Positions 15,239 to 33,826 of a stretch of 64,000 nucleotides of DNA are shown here, piece after piece (within the stretch, counting starts at the first letter, position 1; each line of letters starts with the position of its first letter). The position numbers and the translations under genes were made by a program. The DNA comes from Fenollaria massiliensis (GTDB lineage Bacteria > Bacillota > Clostridia > Tissierellales > Peptoniphilaceae): positions 62,001 to 126,000 of the forward strand of contig NZ_HG326224.1 in NCBI RefSeq assembly GCF_000312505.2. The letters are read 5' to 3'. The notes beneath the pieces were generated by a model that saw only the letters and a program-made list of their open reading frames with translations, ran no database searches and was not told the origin of the DNA.

Positions 15239-15916
15239 ATGATCCCAAATCACGTAGCAATAATTATGGATGGCAATGGCAGATGGGCAAAAAAGAGAAA
15301 TATGCCAAGAACTTATGGTCACAAAGAAGGTATGAACAGAGTTATAGAAAATGTAAGGTATGCCTCAGATGCAGGTATTAAATATCTTACTTTATATGCC
15401 TTTTCTAAAGAAAACTGGAAAAGACCAAAAGAAGAAGTATCTTTTTTGATGAAGCTAATAATTATTTATATCAATAGCCAAATAGACGAACTTGATAAAA
15501 ACAATGTTAAAATAGTTGTATCTGGTGATTTAGATGAAATATATCCTGAATCAAAAAAAGTTATTGATGGAGCCATAGAGAGAACTTCAAAAAACACAGG
15601 ACTTATTCTAAATATCTGCTTAAATTATGGTTCGAGAGATGAGATTATTAGAGCTATAAATCTTGCTCAAAAAGATGGAAGAGAAATTAATTCTTACGTA
15701 GATCTTAAAGAATATTTTTATAACTCATATATACCAGATCCTGATTTAATAATAAGAACGAGTGGAGAAGAGAGACTATCAAACTTTTTACTTATGCAAT
15801 CAGCTTACAGTGAACTTTATTTTACAGATAAACTTTGGCCAGACTTTCATAGAGATGATTTTGCTGAAGCATTAGAAAATTTTGCCAGAAGACATAGAAG
15901 ATACGGAGGAATATAA
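15239..15916 (+). CDS. uppS: Undecaprenyl diphosphate synthase (cis-prenyltransferase)
   Basis: The cis-prenyltransferase that makes the C55 lipid carrier diphosphate for cell wall synthesis. 225 residues, slightly short for the family (about 245). HVAIIMDGNGRWAKKR holds the catalytic Asp and diphosphate-binding loop; TLYAFSKENWKRP, RTSGEERLSNFLL and the C-terminal FARRHRRYGG are conserved. AAGGAGA precedes the ATG. Its TAA overlaps the cdsA ATG by one base. Cytoplasmic, membrane-associated. Confidence 0.97.
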   Translation: MIPNHVAIIMDGNGRWAKKRNMPRTYGHKEGMNRVIENVRYASDAGIKYLTLYAFSKENWKRPKEEVSFLMKLIIIYINSQIDELDKNNVKIVVSGDLDEIYPESKKVIDGAIERTSKNTGLILNICLNYGSRDEIIRAINLAQKDGREINSYVDLKEYFYNSYIPDPDLIIRTSGEERLSNFLLMQSAYSELYFTDKLWPDFHRDDFAEALENFARRHRRYGGI

Positions 15917-16680
15917 TGAAGAGCTTTTATAAAAGACTAATAACAACAGTAGTGGCGCTTTTACTACTAGGCCTTGTAATCTATGATATGAATCATATCT
16001 ATAGATTTGCCATCTTTTTATTTGCTTCGTTAGCTTCATATGAAGTTTTGCACATGATGACAGACTCAAGAAAAAAACTTACATGTATTCTAGCTATTAT
16101 GCTAAATCTCATCCTATACATTAATATATACACATCATTTATGCCAAATATGCATATTTTTGTTTTGATGCTTATATTATTTTCAATAATAAGTGTTTTG
16201 GATAAAGAATTTTCGTCTAGAAGCTTTATTAGCTTAATTTTTACTACATGTTTTATAATTATGCCATTTACAATGTTCTATAATATTGCAGATAGAAGTA
16301 AACTTATACTTGTATTTTTAATATCTACATCAAGCGATATCTTTGCTTATGTATTTGGCTCACTCTTTGGTAAACATAAACTAATAGAAAGAATCAGCCC
16401 TAATAAAACAATTGAGGGTTCTGTTGGCTCGTACATAACAAGTCTAGCTATAACATATCTTTATATTAGCTATTTTAATTTAAAAAGCAATCCTTATTAT
16501 ATAATTGGTTTAATTTTAGCACCTATAGTTGCTCAATTTGGTGATTTAATTTTCTCTAAGCTTAAGAGATATTATAATATTAAGGACTACGGATACATAT
16601 TCCCAGGACATGGAGGCATAATGGATAGATTTGATAGCATTTTATTGGTATGCCCCTTTGTAATAATCTGTTTTTTTTAA
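15916..16680 (+). CDS. cdsA: Phosphatidate cytidylyltransferase
   Basis: CDP-diglyceride synthase, an integral membrane enzyme making CDP-diacylglycerol from phosphatidate and CTP. 254 residues with about seven hydrophobic segments. The CDS signature at the C terminus is present as SKLKRYYNIKDYGYIFPGHG followed by GIMDRFDS, and ERISPNKTIEGSVGS lies before it. In many Firmicutes dxr follows cdsA; here rseP follows directly after 14 nt. Confidence 0.95.
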   Translation: MKSFYKRLITTVVALLLLGLVIYDMNHIYRFAIFLFASLASYEVLHMMTDSRKKLTCILAIMLNLILYINIYTSFMPNMHIFVLMLILFSIISVLDKEFSSRSFISLIFTTCFIIMPFTMFYNIADRSKLILVFLISTSSDIFAYVFGSLFGKHKLIERISPNKTIEGSVGSYITSLAITYLYISYFNLKSNPYYIIGLILAPIVAQFGDLIFSKLKRYYNIKDYGYIFPGHGGIMDRFDSILLVCPFVIICFF

Positions 16681-16694
16681 GGAGCAATTGATTT

Positions 16695-17714
16695 ATGAGT
16701 ATAATAGTAGCATTTTTAGTATTTTTAACTTTAGTAACAATTCACGAGTTTGGTCATTTTATTTTGGCTAAGTGGGCTGGCATCAAGGTCAACGAGTTTG
16801 CTGTTGGCATGGGTCCAGCTATATTAAAGAAACAAAAAGGTGAGACTCTTTATTCACTTAGAATTTTTCCTCTTGGCGGTTACTGTGCCATGGAAGGTGA
16901 GGATGAAGACAGCGCTGACGAAAGAAGTTTTGATAACGCTAAAGCATATAAGAGGCTTGTAGTTATACTAGCAGGAGCCTTTATGAATATGCTGTTAGCG
17001 GTAGTGGCTTTTCTTATTGTGAATATGCAAAGTGGCTTCACTGACTTAAGTATTGATAAAATTGAAGCTAATTCTCCAGCATATATTGCCGGTATACAAG
17101 AAAATGATGAGATAATTTCATATAATGGTAAAAAGCCATTATTATTTTTAGAATTAAGAAATATGATAATTAATTCTAAAAATGAGAGTGATACACTTAC
17201 TTTGAAAAGAGATGGAAAACTTATAAACGTAGAAATAAAACCAGAGCTAGCAACTATAGAGGATAACGGGAAAACTATCGAATATAAAAAGATTGGCATA
17301 ATGCCTAAGGTGCGTTATGACTTTTTTGGTGCTTTTAAAGAGAGCATCAATACATGTAGATACGCCTTTAGATCAATGTTTGATTTTTTAGGCAGAGCTT
17401 TTAAAGGGAACGTCAAGAAAAATGAAGTTTCAGGACCTGTTGTCATAATTAAAACTATAGCAAGTGCAGCTAAAGTTGGTTTTAGCTCAGTTATGTTTTT
17501 ATTGGGACTAATAAGCATAAACCTTGCTTTCTTTAATCTATTACCATTCCCAGCATTAGATGGCGGCAAGGCGGTTTTTATCTTATTTGAGATGATAACA
17601 GGAATTAAACCGAATAAAAAAGTAGAGTATATCGTAAATATAGTTGGATTTTCATTACTAATACTTTTATTCTTATTTGTGACTTATAATGACATTAAAG
17701 GATTGATTAGATGA
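16695..17714 (+). CDS. rseP: Site-2 zinc metalloprotease RseP/RasP (M50B)
   Basis: An intramembrane zinc protease for regulated proteolysis of anti-sigma factors and remnant signal peptides. 339 residues. The zinc-binding HEFGH is in the first membrane helix (residues about 18-22), a single PDZ domain lies at about 115-190 (SPAYIAGIQENDEIIS), and the third metal ligand is in NLLPFPALDGGK near the C terminus. AAGGAG lies upstream. The last 4 nt overlap the ispG start (ATGA). Confidence 0.96.
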   Translation: MSIIVAFLVFLTLVTIHEFGHFILAKWAGIKVNEFAVGMGPAILKKQKGETLYSLRIFPLGGYCAMEGEDEDSADERSFDNAKAYKRLVVILAGAFMNMLLAVVAFLIVNMQSGFTDLSIDKIEANSPAYIAGIQENDEIISYNGKKPLLFLELRNMIINSKNESDTLTLKRDGKLINVEIKPELATIEDNGKTIEYKKIGIMPKVRYDFFGAFKESINTCRYAFRSMFDFLGRAFKGNVKKNEVSGPVVIIKTIASAAKVGFSSVMFLLGLISINLAFFNLLPFPALDGGKAVFILFEMITGIKPNKKVEYIVNIVGFSLLILLFLFVTYNDIKGLIR

Positions 17715-18767: not shown

Positions 18768-21700
18768 ATGATAAAATTATTTAAACCTGAAGAACTGAAT
18801 ATAAATATAGATTTTCTTTCAGATGATGATAAGATATTTTTCGAAAGTCCTGTTCTTAATGAAAAGACACTTAAAATAACTTATTATTATAATTTGAAAG
18901 AGCAAAGTCTAGCTCCAAAAGTAGATGAATTAATTAAGTCTACTTTTTTAAAATTCTCTTTATCAGATGTAAATATTAATGCAATACAATATACAAAGTG
19001 CAGTGAATATTTCAATTCAATAAGAAATGAATTTACTGATATCGATGAAAAAGCATTAAGCTATGAAGAAGATGATGCATCATATACATTTACACTTGAT
19101 AATCAGCTAATACTAGATAGCTTCAATGCAAATCCTTTCCTTGAACTGATGAGATCTTTGTGTACAAGCTTTGAAAATAAGGCTATAAAAACTAAATGCA
19201 AAGAAATTGTTATCAATAAAGAAGAATTTATCGATCAATTAAAAAATAACGCTGAACAAATAAGTGAAAGCTTTAAAATTGTTAAAGAAGAAAAGAAAAA
19301 AAGCGAAGCAAGTGCTGAAAACGGCGGTAAAAAATCATTTTTCAGAAAGAAAAAAGAAATTGATAAAAATAAATGCATCAAGATAAAAGATATCACTTCT
19401 GACATGGACTTTATTACAATACAAGGAGAAGTCTTTGCTTATGAGTTTGTTGACAGAGATGATTATGCCTTAGTTAAATTTGCTGTAGATGACGGTGAAG
19501 AGGCTATCAGAGTTAGTAAATTCATAAGAAAAAATAAAGAAGGAAAATATGATTATGAATATGATATAGATAACGGAGTTAAATTATACCTTTGCGGCAA
19601 TGTTAATCTTTTCCAAAATATCATGAGCATAAAGATTTACAGCTATGAAATAATTAATGAAGAAAAAACAGATGAAGAAACAGAAGATATAAAGAGGGTA
19701 GAAATAGGACTACACACTAAGATGTCAAGTCAAGAAGGCTTTATATCAGCTAAAGAATATTTTAAAGAAGCAAAAAAGAGAGGCTATGATTCGCTCGGCT
19801 TCATGGACAAAAATGTTGTTCAAAGCTATCCAGAAATTATGGATGCAGCTATAGAAACAGGTATTAAACCTTTATATGGTGTAGAAGCGAATTTATTTGA
19901 CGATACAAAAACTTTAGTAAACAATTACAAAGGCGATAACAAAAACACCTTTGTTGTTTTTGACGTAGAAACTACAGGCTTTTCAGCAACTGACGATAGA
20001 GTTATAGAAATGGGCGCTGTGAAGATAAAAGATGGCAAAGTTATAGATAATTTCTCAGAATTTACTGATCCAGGTTTTCATATACCGTATAGAATTACAG
20101 AATTAACTACAATTGATGATGCTACTGTAGCTGGCTGTCCATCATTTGATGAAATATTAGAAAATTTTATGGACTTTTGTAAAGATTCAGTTTTAGTCGC
20201 TCATAACGCTGAATTCGATATTTCTTTTATTAAAAGCTCTATGCACAGAAAAGGAATCAAATTTGATTATGAATATATAGATACACTTGAACTTTCTAGA
20301 TATTTATTGCCAGATTTGAAAAAGCATAGACTAGATACATTAACAGCTCTATTTAATATCAATCTAGAAAATCATCATAGAGCAATAGATGACGCGACAG
20401 CTACAGGTTTTGTGTTCTTAAAGCTTTTAGATTTATTAAAAGAACAAAATTGCAATAATCTTGACGATATGTCAAAAATCAAATCACAAAATTATTATAA
20501 TGTTCACAATATTTCAATATTTGCTACAAATTTAACAGGTTTAAAAAATTTATATAGACTGATTTCTCTATCTCATATTGATAATTACAATAGACAGCCA
20601 ATTGTTTATAAAAGTCAAATAGATGAAAACAGAGAAGGCCTTTTAGTAGGAGGAGGCTCTTACAACGGCCCTATATACAACGCCTTAATTAGATGTGAAG
20701 AGATCGATAAACTTAAAGAAATGATCAAATACTATGACTTTGTCGAGCTTCAACCAATGGGCCAATATCTTTATTTAATCGAAGATGAGAGCCTTCACGA
20801 AATGGATTCAATTAGAAATATCAATAGAAGGCTATATGATGCAGCAAAAGAAGTAAATGTTCCAGTACTTGCTAATGGCGATGTTTATTATATTGATCAA
20901 AGTGATAGTGTCTATAGATCAATTTTAGTCTTTAACAGAAAAAATTTTGTAGGAAGTAGAAAAGAATGTAATAACACAGATCATTATTTTAAAACTACAA
21001 AGGAATTATTAAATAGTTTTCCATACTTAAGCGAAGAGGAAACAAAAGAAATTGTTATTGATAATACTTTAGCATTTGCAGAGAAATTTGAAAATATAAG
21101 GCCAATTCCTAAAGATACCTTCCCACCATTTATTGAAAATTCAGATAAAGACCTTAGAGACTGCTGCTATAATAAAGCTACAAGCATATATGGAGATCCA
21201 CTTCCTGAGATAGTTAAAAAGAGGCTTGATAAAGAGCTTGATTCAATAATTGGTAATGGTTATGCAGTTTTATACATCATAGCAAGAAAACTTATTTTGC
21301 AGTCAAATGCAGATGGTTACGTAGTTGGATCAAGAGGATCTGTTGGTTCATCTTTTGCGGCTACAATGAGTGATATAACTGAGGTTAATCCACTTATACC
21401 TCACTATGTGTGCCCAAATTGTAAGCACAGCGAATTTGTCGATGATCCAAAATATGATTCAGGCTTTGACCTTCCTCGTAAAAACTGTCCAATATGTTCA
21501 CATGAGATGAATAGAGACGGACAAAAGATACCATTCGAAGTATTTTTAGGCTTTAATGGAGATAAGGAACCAGATATAGACCTAAACTTTGCGGGCGATT
21601 ATCAATTGACAGCACATAAAAATACAGAAAAGATATTCGGTGAAAATTTTGTATTCAGAGCTGGAACCATTGGCACTCTAGCTGATAAGACTGCTGCTGC

Positions 21701-23021
21701 TTGTATCTTGGATTATCTTGAGAAGAAAAATAAAAATATTTCATATTTGCACGCTATGTTTTTAAGTAAAAGAATAAAAGGCTCAAAGAGAACAACTGGC
21801 CAACACGCTGGCGGGGTAATGGTAGTTCCTAAAAATAAGAGCATACTAGATTTTACTCCAGTTCAAAAACCAGCTGATGACATGGGAACAGATATAATTA
21901 CAACGCATTTCGATTATCACTCCATAAGCGGTAAAATACTTAAGCTTGACCTTCTTGGTCATGATGTTCCTAACATTATAAAAAATCTTGAAGACCTAAC
22001 TAATACTAAAATTGAAGAAATACCATTTGATGATGAAAAAACATTGTCAATATTTTCATCAACTGAGGCTTTAGATATTGATAAAGATGATTTAAAATTT
22101 GGCGTAGGAACCATAGCTATACCAGAATTTGGTACAAACTTTGTTAGAGGCATGCTTAAAGATACAAAACCAAAAACATTCTCAGATCTTGTTAGAATAA
22201 GTGGTCTTTCACATGGAACAAACGTTTGGAATAGTAACGCAGAAAAACTTGTAAATGAGATGAATGTACCTATGTCAGAAGTTATTTCTACTAGAGATGA
22301 CATCATGAACCAGTTAATTGATGCAGGCATGGATAAATCTACAGCATTTAAAATAATGGAGTTTGTTAGAAAAGGTAAACCATTAATACAAAAGAAAATT
22401 GTTGATAATGAAACTATAATTATAAATTATGAAGATGAAATAAAGAAGTATCCACTACCAGAGTGGTACCTAGATAGCTGTCATAAAATTTCATATCTAT
22501 TTCCAAAAGCGCACGCTGCTGCCTATGTTATGATGAGCTACAGACTTGCTTGGTATAAAATTTATTATCCAGCCGCATTCTATGCAACATATTTTACTCA
22601 AAAGATAAATGATTTTGATTATGACGCTCTTGTTCAAAAAATTGATAATTTAGATGCGTTGATGAGAGAAATTTCTCAAAACCCACAAGCAAAGAAAAAA
22701 GATGAAGATCTGTTATCTTTAGCAGAAGTAGTTAAAGAAATGCAGCTTAGAAATATAAGTATTGCGCCAATAGATTTAGATAAATCTCTAGCAACAAAAT
22801 TTACTGTTATTGATGGTGAAATCATTCCGCCATTTACAGTAATTGCTGGACTTGGTAAAGATCCAGCTAATAACATAATTAGAGAGAGAGAACTTAAAGA
22901 GTTTAACTCAATTGAGGACTTTCAAAAAAGGACTCAGGTCAACAGCACAGTAATTGCATATTTAAAATCTATAAACTTTTTTAAAGATATGCATGAAACC
23001 AACCAGATAAGCTTATTTTAA
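18768..23021 (+). CDS. polC: DNA polymerase III alpha subunit, PolC type
   Basis: The Gram-positive replicative polymerase PolC, 1417 residues. In order: N-terminal and OB regions (about 1-300), a PHP domain (about 305-390 and 570-720) split by a DEDDh proofreading exonuclease (about 392-560, FDVETTGFSATDDRVIEMG), a zinc-binding segment (CPNCKH about 882, CPICSH about 907) and the polymerase core with catalytic EPDIDLNFAGDYQ near 935. The exonuclease and polymerase sites look intact. In the PHP part, however, the His residues expected of the family are replaced: HLHT reads GLHT, TDH reads MDK and GDVH reads GDVY. It ends a block uppS-cdsA-rseP-ispG-polC, and the OLE RNA promoter begins at its stop codon. 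Confidence 0.97.
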   Translation: MIKLFKPEELNINIDFLSDDDKIFFESPVLNEKTLKITYYYNLKEQSLAPKVDELIKSTFLKFSLSDVNINAIQYTKCSEYFNSIRNEFTDIDEKALSYEEDDASYTFTLDNQLILDSFNANPFLELMRSLCTSFENKAIKTKCKEIVINKEEFIDQLKNNAEQISESFKIVKEEKKKSEASAENGGKKSFFRKKKEIDKNKCIKIKDITSDMDFITIQGEVFAYEFVDRDDYALVKFAVDDGEEAIRVSKFIRKNKEGKYDYEYDIDNGVKLYLCGNVNLFQNIMSIKIYSYEIINEEKTDEETEDIKRVEIGLHTKMSSQEGFISAKEYFKEAKKRGYDSLGFMDKNVVQSYPEIMDAAIETGIKPLYGVEANLFDDTKTLVNNYKGDNKNTFVVFDVETTGFSATDDRVIEMGAVKIKDGKVIDNFSEFTDPGFHIPYRITELTTIDDATVAGCPSFDEILENFMDFCKDSVLVAHNAEFDISFIKSSMHRKGIKFDYEYIDTLELSRYLLPDLKKHRLDTLTALFNINLENHHRAIDDATATGFVFLKLLDLLKEQNCNNLDDMSKIKSQNYYNVHNISIFATNLTGLKNLYRLISLSHIDNYNRQPIVYKSQIDENREGLLVGGGSYNGPIYNALIRCEEIDKLKEMIKYYDFVELQPMGQYLYLIEDESLHEMDSIRNINRRLYDAAKEVNVPVLANGDVYYIDQSDSVYRSILVFNRKNFVGSRKECNNTDHYFKTTKELLNSFPYLSEEETKEIVIDNTLAFAEKFENIRPIPKDTFPPFIENSDKDLRDCCYNKATSIYGDPLPEIVKKRLDKELDSIIGNGYAVLYIIARKLILQSNADGYVVGSRGSVGSSFAATMSDITEVNPLIPHYVCPNCKHSEFVDDPKYDSGFDLPRKNCPICSHEMNRDGQKIPFEVFLGFNGDKEPDIDLNFAGDYQLTAHKNTEKIFGENFVFRAGTIGTLADKTAAACILDYLEKKNKNISYLHAMFLSKRIKGSKRTTGQHAGGVMVVPKNKSILDFTPVQKPADDMGTDIITTHFDYHSISGKILKLDLLGHDVPNIIKNLEDLTNTKIEEIPFDDEKTLSIFSSTEALDIDKDDLKFGVGTIAIPEFGTNFVRGMLKDTKPKTFSDLVRISGLSHGTNVWNSNAEKLVNEMNVPMSEVISTRDDIMNQLIDAGMDKSTAFKIMEFVRKGKPLIQKKIVDNETIIINYEDEIKKYPLPEWYLDSCHKISYLFPKAHAAAYVMMSYRLAWYKIYYPAAFYATYFTQKINDFDYDALVQKIDNLDALMREISQNPQAKKKDEDLLSLAEVVKEMQLRNISIAPIDLDKSLATKFTVIDGEIIPPFTVIAGLGKDPANNIIRERELKEFNSIEDFQKRTQVNSTVIAYLKSINFFKDMHETNQISLF

Positions 23022-23050
23022 TTGACAAAATACCACTATTATAGTATAAT
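23022..23050 (+). promoter_or_regulatory. Consensus sigma-A promoter of the OLE RNA, flanked by an inverted repeat
   Basis: TTGACA (23022-23027), exactly 17 nt, then TATAAT (23045-23050): a perfect consensus promoter directly after the polC stop codon. TACCACTA (23031-23038) and TAGTGGTG (23056-23063) form a 7/8 inverted repeat around the -10 element, so an operator is possible. The predicted start is near 23057. Confidence 0.9.
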
Positions 23051-23056
23051 CAAATT

Positions 23057-23630
23057 AGTGGTGTAGTATTCTAGTCAGTATTCTATATCATGAAGGCGGG
23101 GCTAAAAATCCGCCAAAGAGCGTATCGATGAAGTTCTTGATTTGTGCTTGTGACGCCCAGTCATGGGCATTCTTTGAGAGTAAGACAGATGGGGCGATCT
23201 ACAACGGCATGTAGGCGTTGACCCTGCTGTCGCGGAGGCGTAAGATTTATCTTATGTAGACCTATTTTTTATAAATAGTGTAGCTTGCCTTGAGTGGTCT
23301 AGTGCGGATGATAAGGTCTTTTTATTGAACTTGTGGCCAGAGAACAATAAAAAAAGTTATCGAAACCTAAATTGCAAAAGAGGCTAAGGATATAAAATAC
23401 TGTTTGGGAAAACTTCTAGACTAAATCGTAAGATGACTAAAAAGGGATTACAGTGCGGACTAAGTGGCAATCCAGTATTATATTTGGCAACAGTATAATT
23501 ACTAAATTAATGGGAAACCGCTATGATTGGTGACATATAGCCTTAGTAAGGGAAAACCAACTGGACCTAAGCCGTAAGATTTACTTTTTTAGTTGCCACT
23601 ATAGCTGATAGGTAACTATCAGCTTTTATT
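23057..23630 (+). ncRNA. ole: OLE RNA (ornate large extremophilic RNA)
   Basis: A roughly 570-nt stretch without coding potential, GC-richer than its flanks and full of helices: GGCGG...CCGCC near 23095-23116, GCCCA-GTCA-TGGGC near 23154, and a block around 23190-23240 (GGGGCGATCTACAACGGCAT and what follows) that looks highly conserved. It ends in a stem with a GTAA loop and a T-rich tail. Identification rests on size, on the next gene encoding a protein that fits OapA, and on tlyA and recN following, which is the known OLE neighbourhood in Bacillus halodurans and anaerobic Firmicutes. OLE RNA forms a membrane-bound complex with OapA linked to stress and metal or energy responses. It is not RNase P RNA: none of the conserved P RNA regions is seen. 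A covariance-model search would settle it. Confidence 0.85.
23602..23628 (+). terminator. 3'-terminal hairpin of OLE RNA, terminator-like
   Basis: AGCTGATAG (23603-23611) and CTATCAGCT (23616-23624) form a perfect 9-bp stem with a GTAA tetraloop, followed by TTTATT. It probably defines the RNA 3' end, with partial readthrough to oapA, since no separate oapA promoter is evident. Confidence 0.75.
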
Positions 23631-23700
23631 GTAAATTAATGTTTTAATATTATCAAATTAGGTAATATATAATAAGCCTAAACTTATATAGGAGTATATT

Positions 23701-24309
23701 TTGAAACTAAAAAATAAATATAAAGAAAAAAGTATAAATAAAATAGAAAAAAATAAAAAAAGCAAAACGTCTAAAACAGATTATAGGTGGACAATGCTCA
23801 TAACCATGTTTACATTTATTATGTCTGTCGCCTTATCGTTTTTACTAGACCATTTACTTAAAGACGTAAATATTTTCGTCGGTGTTATTATGCTTCTTTC
23901 CGTTATACTTATTGGTATAATATTTGATATTATAGGCGTGAGCGTAACTAGTGCAGATCAAAAACTATTTCATTCAATGGCTGCAAACCGCATACAAGAA
24001 GGAAAAGTAGCTATTGATTTAATTAAAAATGCTGATAAGGTATCAAGCTTTTGTAATGACGTAATCGGTGACATGGCTGGAATTATCTCAGGTGCCTTAG
24101 GTGCGAGTCTTCTTAGCAAAATTTATGATAAATTTAACGATATAAACATAGCTCTTATAGGTACTTTAATTACAGCATCAGTCGCTGGTTTTACAGTTGG
24201 AGGCAAATCTTTAGGTAAATCCGTTGCAATAAATAAATATAGAGAAATAATATTTTTTATTTCAAAGATAATTTTAAAATTTAGAAATATTTTTAAAAAT
24301 AATAAATAA
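23701..24309 (+). CDS. oapA: OLE-associated protein OapA (integral membrane)
   Basis: A 202-residue membrane protein with a basic N-terminal tail (about 1-28), four hydrophobic segments (about 30-48, 56-78, 125-140 and 148-168) and a lysine-rich C-terminal end. The central soluble stretch containing FHSMAANRIQEGKVAIDLI and NADKVSSFCNDVIGDMAGI agrees with my memory of the OapA family, which binds OLE RNA at the membrane. The start is TTG with AGGAG 6 nt upstream. It lies directly after the OLE RNA and one base before tlyA, as in other OLE loci. The identification leans on both the sequence motif and the locus. Confidence 0.85.
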   Translation: MKLKNKYKEKSINKIEKNKKSKTSKTDYRWTMLITMFTFIMSVALSFLLDHLLKDVNIFVGVIMLLSVILIGIIFDIIGVSVTSADQKLFHSMAANRIQEGKVAIDLIKNADKVSSFCNDVIGDMAGIISGALGASLLSKIYDKFNDINIALIGTLITASVAGFTVGGKSLGKSVAINKYREIIFFISKIILKFRNIFKNNK

Positions 24310-24310
24310 T

Positions 24311-25094
24311 ATGAGATTAGATAAGTATTTAAACGAATTTAAAGATATTGATAGTAGGACAAAAGCTAAAAAGTTAATTCTTGGTTCATTTGTCTATGTC
24401 AATGGCAAAATTATACTTAGCCCAAGTTATGATGTTAATGAAAATTATATTGTAGAAATAAATGCAGATAATGATATAACAAGATATGTATCAAGGGGCG
24501 CGCTTAAGTTAATAAAAGCAATAGAATGCATTTAATTTAGAGATTAATGACAAAGTATGCATTGATATAGGAGCGTCTACTGGAGGCTTCACAGATGTTT
24601 TAGTAAAGAATGGGGCACGTTTAGTTTATGCTGTAGATGTTGGTAAAGATCAACTTCATCCATCTTTAAAAGAGAATGAAAAAGTTATATCTATTGAATC
24701 TTTTGATGCAAGAAATATTAAAGAGGATACTTTTAGTGAAGATTTTGATATAATTACATCAGATTTAAGTTTTATATCATTAACATTATTAGCTGATGCT
24801 TTTAATTTGCTTGTAAATGAAAAAAGTAAACTTGTAGTTTTAATTAAGCCACAATTTGAATCAGGCAAAATAAAGAGAAAAAATGGCATATTTAATGATG
24901 CTAAATTACATATAGATGCAATAAATAAAGTGATATTATCTTTTCATGCAAAAGGCCTTTATTTAAATGATATATGCAAATCGCCTATAGAAGGCGGGGA
25001 AGGTAATATTGAGTACCTTGCATTATTTACAAGAAAAGACATTGCAAGAAATATTGATATTAAAAAATTAGTAAAAGATTCTTTAAGTAGGTGA
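24311..25094 (+). pseudogene. tlyA: tlyA, 16S/23S rRNA cytidine 2'-O-methyltransferase, interrupted by one frameshift
   Basis: A TlyA/FtsJ-like protein in two frames. The first part (24311-24535) has the S4 RNA-binding domain (MRLDKYLNEF..., YVSRGALKLIKAIE) and stops at TAA 24533. The second part continues from about 24531 in the next frame as FNLEINDKVCIDIGASTGGF, the SAM-binding domain, through YAVDVGKDQLHP, DLSFIS and LIKPQFESGK to 25094. Removing one base near 24530 restores about 260 residues, normal for the family, and all motifs are intact. This may be a mutation, a sequencing error, or +1 recoding (ATT TAA resembles the prfB arrangement, but no SD-like enhancer is seen). Its location between oapA and recN is the usual one. 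Confidence 0.85.
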
Positions 25095-25098
25095 ATAT

Positions 25099-26766
25099 AT
25101 GCTTAAAAAATTATATATTAAAGATTTTGCTATAATTGATTCATTAGATCTTGATTTTGACAATGGTTTTTCCGCTATATCAGGCGAAACTGGTAGTGGT
25201 AAATCCATCATTGTCGACGCCTTAGCTGTTGTGCTTGGTGCAAAAGCGAGCAAAAATCAAATTAGAGATGGTAAAGAATTTTCAAGTATTGAAGCTCATA
25301 TTGATTTAGATAATAAAAAATTAAGCAAAATTAATCAAATTTTGAATACAAAACTGAAAAGTCCTATTATTTTAAAAAGAACTATATATAGGGATAAATC
25401 AAGTGAGAATTATATTAATGATATGAGTATAACGCTTAAAGATTTGAGTGAAATAAGTAATATTAGCATTAACATATTAGGACAAAAAGAGCAATTTACT
25501 CTACTAGACAAAAATGAACACATATATATACTTGATTATTTTGGAGATAATGAATATAAATCTTTACTTAGCGAAATTGAGGATTTATATAATAAAATAG
25601 ATAAAACAAATAAGCGTTTAAAAGAGCTTCCAAGTAATCAAAAAGAGATTGATAATCAGATAGACTTTATTGAATTTCAAAAAAATGAGATCGATAAAGC
25701 TGAAATTTTGGAAGGTGAAGACGAAGAGCTAGAGGCCGAAATAAAAAGGCTTAACTCTAGTGAGGAGATAAAGAAAACATCTTATAAGATAAATCAAATT
25801 TTAAGAGAAAGTGAAAACTATAGCGTTGATGCCTTACTCTCAGATGCAAGTAACCTTGTAGATGATTTAAAAGAGTACTCAAAAGATGCTGCATCTTGGT
25901 ACGAAAAACTCATGGATTATCAAGAGCTTATAAAAGATATAAATGAAGAGATAAATTATTTTTCTGATTCAATTGATTATGATCGAGAAAGGCTATATGA
26001 GTTAAATAAAAGAATTGATGAGATAAACAGGATTAAATATAAATATGGCAACACAATTTCAGATATTAATCTATATAGGGAAGACTTGGACAAAAAGCTT
26101 AAAGAAATAAAAAATATTGAGATAGAAAGGGAAAATTTAGAGAAATCTTTAATTGATTATAAAAAATCATTTGACATAAAAGCAGATGAATTAAGCAAGA
26201 AAAGAAAAGCACTAGCGAAAAAGATTTCAAAGATGCTAGAAGATGAATTAAAAACACTAAATATGAATAATATTCAGGTCGAGATATCAGTCGAGACGAA
26301 GAAGGCCATGAAAGAATACGGCTATGACGAAGTAGAAATACTTATGAGCGCAAATAAAGGTCAATCTGTTAAGCCTATTAGTGAAATTATATCTGGCGGT
26401 GAAATGTCAAGACTAATGCTTGCCATAAAAAATTTAGGAGCTGATTTTGACAATATTGACACTATCATCTTTGATGAGATAGATGCAGGACTTAGCGGCT
26501 ACACAGCAAGCTGCCTTGCAAATAAATTAAAAGAATTATCAAATAAATACCAGATAATATCTATATCACATTTGCCACAAATTTTAGCTAAGGCAAAAGA
26601 ACATTATCTAGTAGAAAAAGCTAATGAGAACGAAGCTACCATAAGCCATGTTCGTAGGCTTGACTATGATGGAAGAGTTTTAGAACTAGCAAGGCTATTA
26701 AGCTCAGGTAAAATTAGTGATATAGCTATAAAAAATGCTAAAGAATTATTAAAAAGTGAGGAATAG
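25099..26766 (+). CDS. recN: DNA repair protein RecN (SMC-like ATPase)
   Basis: RecN, an SMC-family ATPase acting early in double-strand break repair. 555 residues. Walker A GETGSGKS lies near residue 30, followed by GQKEQFTLLD, a central coiled coil (about 150-370), the ABC signature ISGGEMSRLMLAIK and Walker B TIIFDEIDAGLSG, then ISHLPQILA. It begins 4 nt after the tlyA stop and its stop overlaps the ribosome binding site of the Nudix gene. tlyA-recN linkage is widespread in Firmicutes; nadK and argR, often between them, are missing here. Confidence 0.97.
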   Translation: MLKKLYIKDFAIIDSLDLDFDNGFSAISGETGSGKSIIVDALAVVLGAKASKNQIRDGKEFSSIEAHIDLDNKKLSKINQILNTKLKSPIILKRTIYRDKSSENYINDMSITLKDLSEISNISINILGQKEQFTLLDKNEHIYILDYFGDNEYKSLLSEIEDLYNKIDKTNKRLKELPSNQKEIDNQIDFIEFQKNEIDKAEILEGEDEELEAEIKRLNSSEEIKKTSYKINQILRESENYSVDALLSDASNLVDDLKEYSKDAASWYEKLMDYQELIKDINEEINYFSDSIDYDRERLYELNKRIDEINRIKYKYGNTISDINLYREDLDKKLKEIKNIEIERENLEKSLIDYKKSFDIKADELSKKRKALAKKISKMLEDELKTLNMNNIQVEISVETKKAMKEYGYDEVEILMSANKGQSVKPISEIISGGEMSRLMLAIKNLGADFDNIDTIIFDEIDAGLSGYTASCLANKLKELSNKYQIISISHLPQILAKAKEHYLVEKANENEATISHVRRLDYDGRVLELARLLSSGKISDIAIKNAKELLKSEE

Positions 26767-32594: not shown

Positions 32595-33826
32595 ATGAAC
32601 AATGTATATGATGTAGCTGTTATCGGTGCAGGAGCTGCAGGTCTTTTTACTGCTGTTCATTGCGCTAAGAGAGGTAAAAAAGTTATTTTATACGACAAGA
32701 ATAAATATCCCGGTAGAAAGCTAAGAATAACAGGAAAAGGTAGATGCAATATCTGCAATTACTCTGATAATGAGAATATACTTAAAAATATTGTTCACAA
32801 TTCAAAATTTATGTATAGTTCTTTAAATAATTATTCAGCAATTGATCTAATTAAATTTTTTAATGACAATGGCATAAAGACTAAAGTTGAAAGAGGCAAT
32901 CGTGTTTTTCCTCAGTCTGATGATGCTATGGAAATCATAGAAATGTTTAAAAAGCTCATAAAAGATTTAAATATAAAATTTAAAAATGAAATAGTAGTTA
33001 AAGATATAGATAAAAACGAAGATATTTTTAAAATTATTACTAGCTCTGGAGCGGATTACGCAAGAAATCTTGTAATAGCTTGTGGTGGTATGAGCTACAA
33101 AATAACTGGCTCTAGTGGAGATGGATATAATTTAGCTCAAAAATTTGGACATAGCATAAAGCCTATTAGGGCATCTTTAGTTGCGATGAATACAAGTCTA
33201 GATAAAGATGACAGACTTGAACTTATGGGACTATCTCTTCGGAATGTAGAAGTAAGTGTTATAAATCAAAAAAGAAAAAAATTTTTAAAGAGTTTGGAGA
33301 AATGCTTTTCACACACTTTGGCATATCTGGTCCAATAATTCTTAGTGCTTCATCTTATATGAGTGCAAATGAAGCGTATAAACTCATCTTAGATTTAAAA
33401 CCTGCATTGAGTGATGATCAATTAGATAATAAATTAATTTTACTTTTTGAAGAAGAACATTTAAAATCCATTGGAAAGGTTTTAGAAAATCTATTGCCAA
33501 AAAAATTAATTAATATGTTTTTAAAATCAATAAATATAGATTACTATAAAAAAGCATGTGATATAACTAAGTTTGAGAGAACAGCTATTATCAATAATTT
33601 AAAGCACTTTGATTTAAAATATGATTCTTTAAGAGATATAGATGAAGCAATAATTACAGCTGGCGGGGTAAATGTAAAAGAGATTGACCCAAAGACTATG
33701 GAATCAAAATTAGTAAAAAATCTCTACATAGTAGGAGAAGTCTTAGACATAGACGCTTTAACAGGTGGATATAATTTACAGATAGCGTTTTCAACAGCAT
33801 ATCAAGCAGCCATGAACATTGAGTAG
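32595..33826 (+). pseudogene. HI0933-family NAD(P)/FAD-dependent oxidoreductase, interrupted by one frameshift
   Basis: A flavoprotein of the HI0933/YhiN/BaiN family in two frames. The first part has the dinucleotide fold VIGAGAAGLFTAVHCAKRG, PGRKLRITGKGRCNICN and VIACGGMSYKITGSSGDGY. The second part resumes as EFGEMLFTHFGISGPIIL and ends with LYIVGEVLDIDALTGGYNLQ. The break is at A7T5 around 33275-33286; a -1 shift restores about 410 residues, the normal length. In the zero frame the site reads A AAA AAA followed by TTT, a classic -1 slippery heptamer, so recoding is possible, but an indel or homopolymer sequencing error is the simpler explanation. No stretch of the family appears to be lost. 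Confidence 0.85.

Follow-up and report, generated by a model that had tools for sequence, protein, structure and literature searches.

An OLE RNA–oapA locus beside polC in Fenollaria massiliensis, a member of a family whose genomes mostly lack OLE

Few conserved bacterial RNAs of unassigned biochemical function are as large as OLE RNA. The ole cluster of Halalkalibacterium halodurans is described as a single polycistronic RNA (PMC12265935), and H. halodurans lacking OLE is reported to grow poorly when glutamate or another non-preferred carbon source is supplied (PMC10898510). Cryo-EM reveals an RNA-RNA kissing contact, forming a dimer, at the OLE P9 loop (PMC12286853; PMC12265935). A published survey with 2,822 matches in Bacillota already takes OLE beyond extremophiles, including into uncultured gut clades and small gut-type genomes, reports that MpfA is anticorrelated with OLE, and describes an OLE variant 1 (TANB77-type) marked by short P7, P8 and P9 and by the loss, for the most part, of the OapB site, OapB and OapC (Fernando and Breaker 2024, PMC11332333). 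Among open-licence papers, we found none on OLE in the family of Fenollaria massiliensis. The locus described here lies in a 64-kb stretch of DNA from this species (the window), for which a sequence-only reading had proposed OLE RNA and oapA, calling the RNA rare and the host, from the look of its other genes, a mesophilic amino-acid-fermenting coccus that could widen its known range. The survey total speaks against rarity, as does the presence of OLE in 71 of 249 Tissierellales genomes, a count obtained with the stricter filters used in all searches over more than 40 genomes, which may have passed over highly divergent variants of OLE. Since OLE is this common in both the Bacillota survey and the order, the host range is indeed extended, but modestly. 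Mesophily gained no support from an IVYWREL estimate of 49 C, calculated from 25 window proteins. The additions made here are a contrast between keeping and losing OLE within one family, a separate promoter and terminator, and an invariant hairpin.

OLE is the sole Rfam match at gathering level within the window. It matches RF01071 at 23042–23615 (+), 574 nt, untruncated over model positions 1–616 of 616, with 419.2 bits (E 1e-119) and a gathering score of 50 bits. The helix-rich, GC-richer block of about 570 nt with a GTAA-capped hairpin at its end, which the sequence-only reading had picked out, is real: GC is 0.43 across 23050–23349 compared with mostly 0.25–0.34 in the surrounding DNA, the fold of 23057–23640 beats 100 of 100 shuffles (z -3.54), and the hairpin occupies 23603–23624. 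GC over the whole OLE in this genome (0.387) is the second lowest of 67 sequences from the order. The oapA gene follows at 23701–24309 (+) and encodes, from a TTG start, the 202 aa membrane protein whose four helices and quoted motif had also been read correctly. A profile of OapA proteins neighbouring OLE matches it at 263.9 bits (E 6.5e-79), the same protein being among the profile's 28 rows, and alignment with 27 order proteins adjoining OLE leaves 27 invariant columns. That the locus consists of OLE RNA and oapA is practically certain.

OapA is predicted to have a CNNM-like transmembrane fold. Its AlphaFold model, built with a 41-row alignment, has a mean pLDDT of 88.6 and shows four long helices along with some shorter ones. 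CNNM/CorC Mg2+ transporters fill the first four places among its structural matches (Z 11.2–12.9), the top one with rmsd 2.5 over 129 aligned residues and a Z of 12.9, near the values that helical bundles, according to the tool, commonly reach; the fifth-ranked match is a designed protein (Z 10.2). Foldseek lends CNNM weaker support (best E 5.8e-3). The likeness to MpfA and the CNNM-CorC proteins thus lies in the modelled membrane fold and in the order-wide anticorrelation of MpfA with OLE; OapA, however, lacks the CBS and C-terminal domains known from MpfA, would work with an RNA, and reaches only 16.7 bits against Pfam CNNM, under the 28.4 cut-off. Within the family, strong OapA matches (244–264 bits) occur in exactly the 4 of 130 genomes that carry OLE. 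Weak matches (19–31 bits) in nine OLE-less family genomes, to frames of 425–492 aa, were all rejected as cross-hits because those compared (G098, G117 and G122) sit at MpfA coordinates.

The published OLE partners OapA, OapB, OapC and bS21 are encoded in the host genome, and would bind the RNA at the membrane as in H. halodurans. The sequence-only reading had suggested searching the rest of the genome for OapB and OapC, and both are there. The OapB gene lies between adk and infA, and its product has OLE-associated protein B as best PDB match (E 3.6e-10); an absence of OapB, suggested by a Pfam KOW search that returned only rplX and NusG, was discarded when the adk–infA gap proved to hold the gene. 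A map gene is usual between adk and infA; here oapB and then infA come after adk, and map is missing from the interval (contig L038, 3394–4562). The OapC gene lies between rpoC and rpsL, with Bacillus subtilis YbxF as best match (E 1.9e-10), and bS21 is found in all four OLE-bearing family genomes, the host included. The whole-model match, the adjoining oapA and the encoded OapB, OapC and bS21 thus resemble the OLE systems of H. halodurans and clostridia. Unlike those systems, the host locus has polC upstream in place of ispA, a P8 that is short throughout the host genus compared with the order, a consensus promoter of its own directly after polC, and an order-specific terminator outside the Rfam model. 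Variant 1, as the survey describes it, shares with the host a small genome and a short P8 (PMC11332333). The host falls outside that variant: at 65 nt its P9 interval has the length normal for most of the order, and both OapB and OapC, largely absent there, are present.

OLE occurs in 4 of 130 genomes of the family (three of the host genus and one, G062, of another lineage) and in 67 of 119 genomes elsewhere in the order. Across 67 order sequences, aligned by MAFFT and read against Rfam's structure as it falls on the window, both-sided changes are seen in 94 of 142 OLE pairs, compared with 45–57 when partners are slid by 1–3 columns; helices 5, 6, 8 and 12, at the P7–P9 tips, are poorly paired on this alignment (40–53% of cells). 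Five of 72 rows were dropped from it, G210, G209, G195 and G197 among them. In the first three of these genomes OLE appears fragmented or doubled (loci L073, L074, L075 and L076), probably through assembly or masking, as N runs and contig ends lie at those loci; split or doubled OLE genes were rejected there. The regions expected to hold the OapB site (P12.2/P13) and the OapC kink-turn show no large alignment gaps. The P9 loop carries a self-complementary hexamer, TGGCCA, at 23334–23339 (+). Such a palindrome is present in 59 of the 67 order sequences, as GGGCCC (49), GAGCTC (5), TGGCCA (4) or AGGCCT (1), and the TGGCCA version belongs to exactly the four loci of the host family; eight sequences are without it, one of them lacking the stem itself.

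Directly upstream lies polC (18768–23021, +), a PolC-type DNA polymerase III gene with Pfam DNA_pol3_alpha, an exonuclease inside the PHP domain and a finger domain. It does take the usual place of ispA, as the sequence-only reading had it, since relatives carry a polyprenyl synthetase frame there. At the 67 order loci listed, the frame upstream of OLE is 260–305 aa in 57, longer in seven and polC in three; the 260–305 aa frames are called IspA-like from two that were Pfam-tested, and the one longer frame tested is XseA. At all 27 OLE-less family loci examined, a frame of 254–305 aa (polyprenyl synthetase in the one Pfam-tested) directly abuts tlyA. OLE–oapA was thus lost cleanly in these relatives, whereas the host genus swapped its 5' neighbour for polC.

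Downstream, tlyA (24311–25094, +) is followed by a gene at 25099–26766 (+) with Pfam SMC_N and AAA_23, presumably recN from its position and from the usual make-up of such loci. The tlyA–recN order had been predicted; both genes are there, with Pfam support for RecN, but the tlyA frame is interrupted near 24.5 kb into two pieces that match TlyA models. It is intact in the two congeners (260 and 259 aa), and at the break a real mutation and a sequencing error are indistinguishable. An HI0933-like flavoprotein gene (32595–33826) is likewise split, into overlapping frames 32595–33338 and 33302–33826; two broken genes within 64 kb hint at sequence errors. The dxr gene is often situated between cdsA and an M50 protease gene; in the window none lies between these two (15916–17714), and ispG follows. 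In G062 the order is ispA–OLE–oapA–argR (L002, 439–2981), with no tlyA directly after oapA; its OLE is the most GC-rich of the 67 (0.493) and is without the conserved terminator.

OLE appears to have promoter and terminator sequences of its own, judged by consensus match. The predicted promoter, TTGACA-N17-TATAAT at 23022–23050 (+), matches the consensus at 12 of 12 positions, starts on the base directly after the polC stop, and is identical ahead of OLE in both congeners. Matches of at least 10/12 precede OLE at 58 of 67 order loci, and at 54 of the 62 loci where the 5' motif is present and the upstream sequence long enough, compared with 3.9 expected from dinucleotide shuffles. The OLE transcript likely runs from about 23057 to just past 23624, where the GTAA-capped hairpin at 23603–23624 (+), AGCTGATAG-GTAA-CTATCAGCT, is directly followed by TTTATT in a T-rich tail, as expected of a terminator-like element.

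The arms of this hairpin are conserved across the order. The pattern GCTG[AG]TA[GA] ... [CT]T[AG]TCAGC is found at the OLE 3' end in 58 of 69 loci (three of 72 being left out) and in 15 of 18 OLE-bearing families, with a T-rich tail in all 58; near matches exist in G222 and G197. Of the 58 loci, 51 have precisely GCTGATAG as one arm and 53 precisely CTATCAGC as the other, and the deviating arms (GCTGGTAG, CTGTCAGC) change one base and retain pairing. The stretch between the arms occurs in 39 variants among the 58 loci. With arms constant and the inner part varied, something seems to read the sequence of the hairpin. Searches of the whole window, of other loci totalling 50 kb and of 200 kb of flanking DNA turned up no further copy. 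Among 76 OLE loci listed from named genomes, Tissierellales included, the strict pattern occurs in 15, namely two from Anaerosolibacter and 13 of Tissierella type by name or by matching order contigs. Our search of open-licence papers found none on a conserved OLE terminator. We tentatively entertain, as a possibility with the balance somewhat against it, that the Tissierellales arms are kept as sequence, beyond a mere stem, outside the Rfam model, and would constitute a further functional part of OLE, either a protein-binding hairpin or an oapA attenuator.

In the attenuator case taken alone, OLE would also be a cis-acting leader in this order, its conserved terminator making oapA expression depend on what state the RNA is in. 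The position of the terminator upstream of oapA and the combination of invariant arms and varied inner part would suit such a role, and CUGAUAG in the hairpin could pair, leaving one bulge, with the conserved 5' element CUAGUCAG. However, that antiterminator pairing is unconvincing and was set aside: shuffled arms do equally well in 167 of 5000 trials, before any correction for the arms and lengths tried, and the last G of the 5' element is A in 13 of the 64 loci having the element while the hairpin is unchanged to match. The hairpin is also absent from G062 and from 6 of 6 f6 loci, as it is from f3 and f14. An attenuator in this sense is therefore unlikely, and OLE as part of an RNA-protein particle is the preferred reading.

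Two further alternatives concern the origin and the state of the locus. If the locus had entered the host genus beside polC by horizontal transfer, its restriction to two of the family's 39 genera and the different upstream neighbour would be explained. The trees argue otherwise: family labels change 17 times on the OLE tree, the minimum possible, compared with 48–50 in shuffles, and likewise 17 times on the OapA tree, so the ole–oapA pair looks vertically inherited. The family's four OapA proteins form one clade (89), and all four loci share the TGGCCA loop; in the OLE tree the four family members are not one clade, the branches being long and their deep placement unsure. Transfer is thus improbable. 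Still less credible is that OLE in the host is a non-working, decaying relic, being lost as elsewhere in the family, an idea that would draw on its absence from 126 of 130 family genomes, the short P8 and the broken tlyA downstream. The RNA is instead a full-length model match with its partner genes present and oapA intact in all three congeners, and it is 97.2, 98.3 and 96.5% identical among them, compared with 85.4, 83.4 and 83.0% for the last 1200 nt before OLE (polC), and with 70.0, 78.8 and 68.1% for a 600-nt stretch over oapA and 77.3, 74.7 and 73.1% for a 780-nt stretch over tlyA, these two being set at fixed offsets whose ends differ from the exact gene ends. OLE is more constant than all three stretches, which argues for strong selection on it in the host genus. 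From this conservation and gene content, the locus probably encodes a working OLE ribonucleoprotein.

Co-occurrence with other genes was compared as raw genome counts, with relatedness ignored. By such counts, MpfA (CNNM) is present in 1 of 4 OLE-bearing and 125 of 126 OLE-less genomes of the family, and outside it in 38 of 67 and 47 of 52; 17 OLE-bearing order genomes, in which the sole CNNM match falls short of E 1e-10, were scored as MpfA-less, because weak CNNM matches were judged cross-hits, as with OapA. These counts agree with the anticorrelation reported in the survey (PMC11332333). Inside the family the contrast rests on one genus: none of the three congeners of the host genus has an MpfA match, G062, the other OLE-bearing lineage, has retained MpfA, and no match was found in OLE-less G107. 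OapC, taken as any L7Ae protein and counted in the same raw way, is present in 4 of 4 OLE-bearing versus 6 of 126 OLE-less family genomes (by genus, 2 of 2 versus 3 of 37, or two events) and in 61 of 67 versus 49 of 52 outside, so that its link with OLE is seen only in the family. The corresponding raw counts for OapB are 4 of 4 versus 91 of 126 and 64 of 67 versus 46 of 52. For Spo0A, the host family has no strong match (two weak), and raw counts outside it are 47 of 67 OLE-bearing versus 44 of 52 OLE-less genomes; the positive association seen when the order is taken together stems from the host family alone. As 24 of 71 OLE-bearing order genomes are without a strong Spo0A match, OLE appears independent of sporulation in this order, and the order outside the host family weakens the reported tie between the two.

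A plausible course of events can be outlined from these genes and from H. halodurans. OLE RNA would be made as a separate transcript of ~570 nt, and oapA would be expressed by read-through or from a different start. Through its loops the RNA would dimerise, and OapA, with its predicted CNNM/CorC Mg2+ transporter fold, would hold it at the membrane; OapC, OapB and bS21 would join the particle as in H. halodurans. By analogy with work on that organism, the particle may assist the cell in managing divalent-metal and related stress, a role to which we give about even chances in the host; in most relatives this metal-stress job may be left to MpfA. A role in growth on glutamate would suit an amino-acid fermenter.

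What is useful in the finding is the contrast between kept and lost OLE, together with the hairpin. A family nearly devoid of OLE gives natural comparisons, with and without it, among close relatives, and the empty site in OLE-less relatives reveals what was lost. With OLE-bearing and OLE-less near relatives at hand, and a genus that keeps OLE and shows no MpfA match, the proposed exchange between OLE–OapA and MpfA becomes testable.
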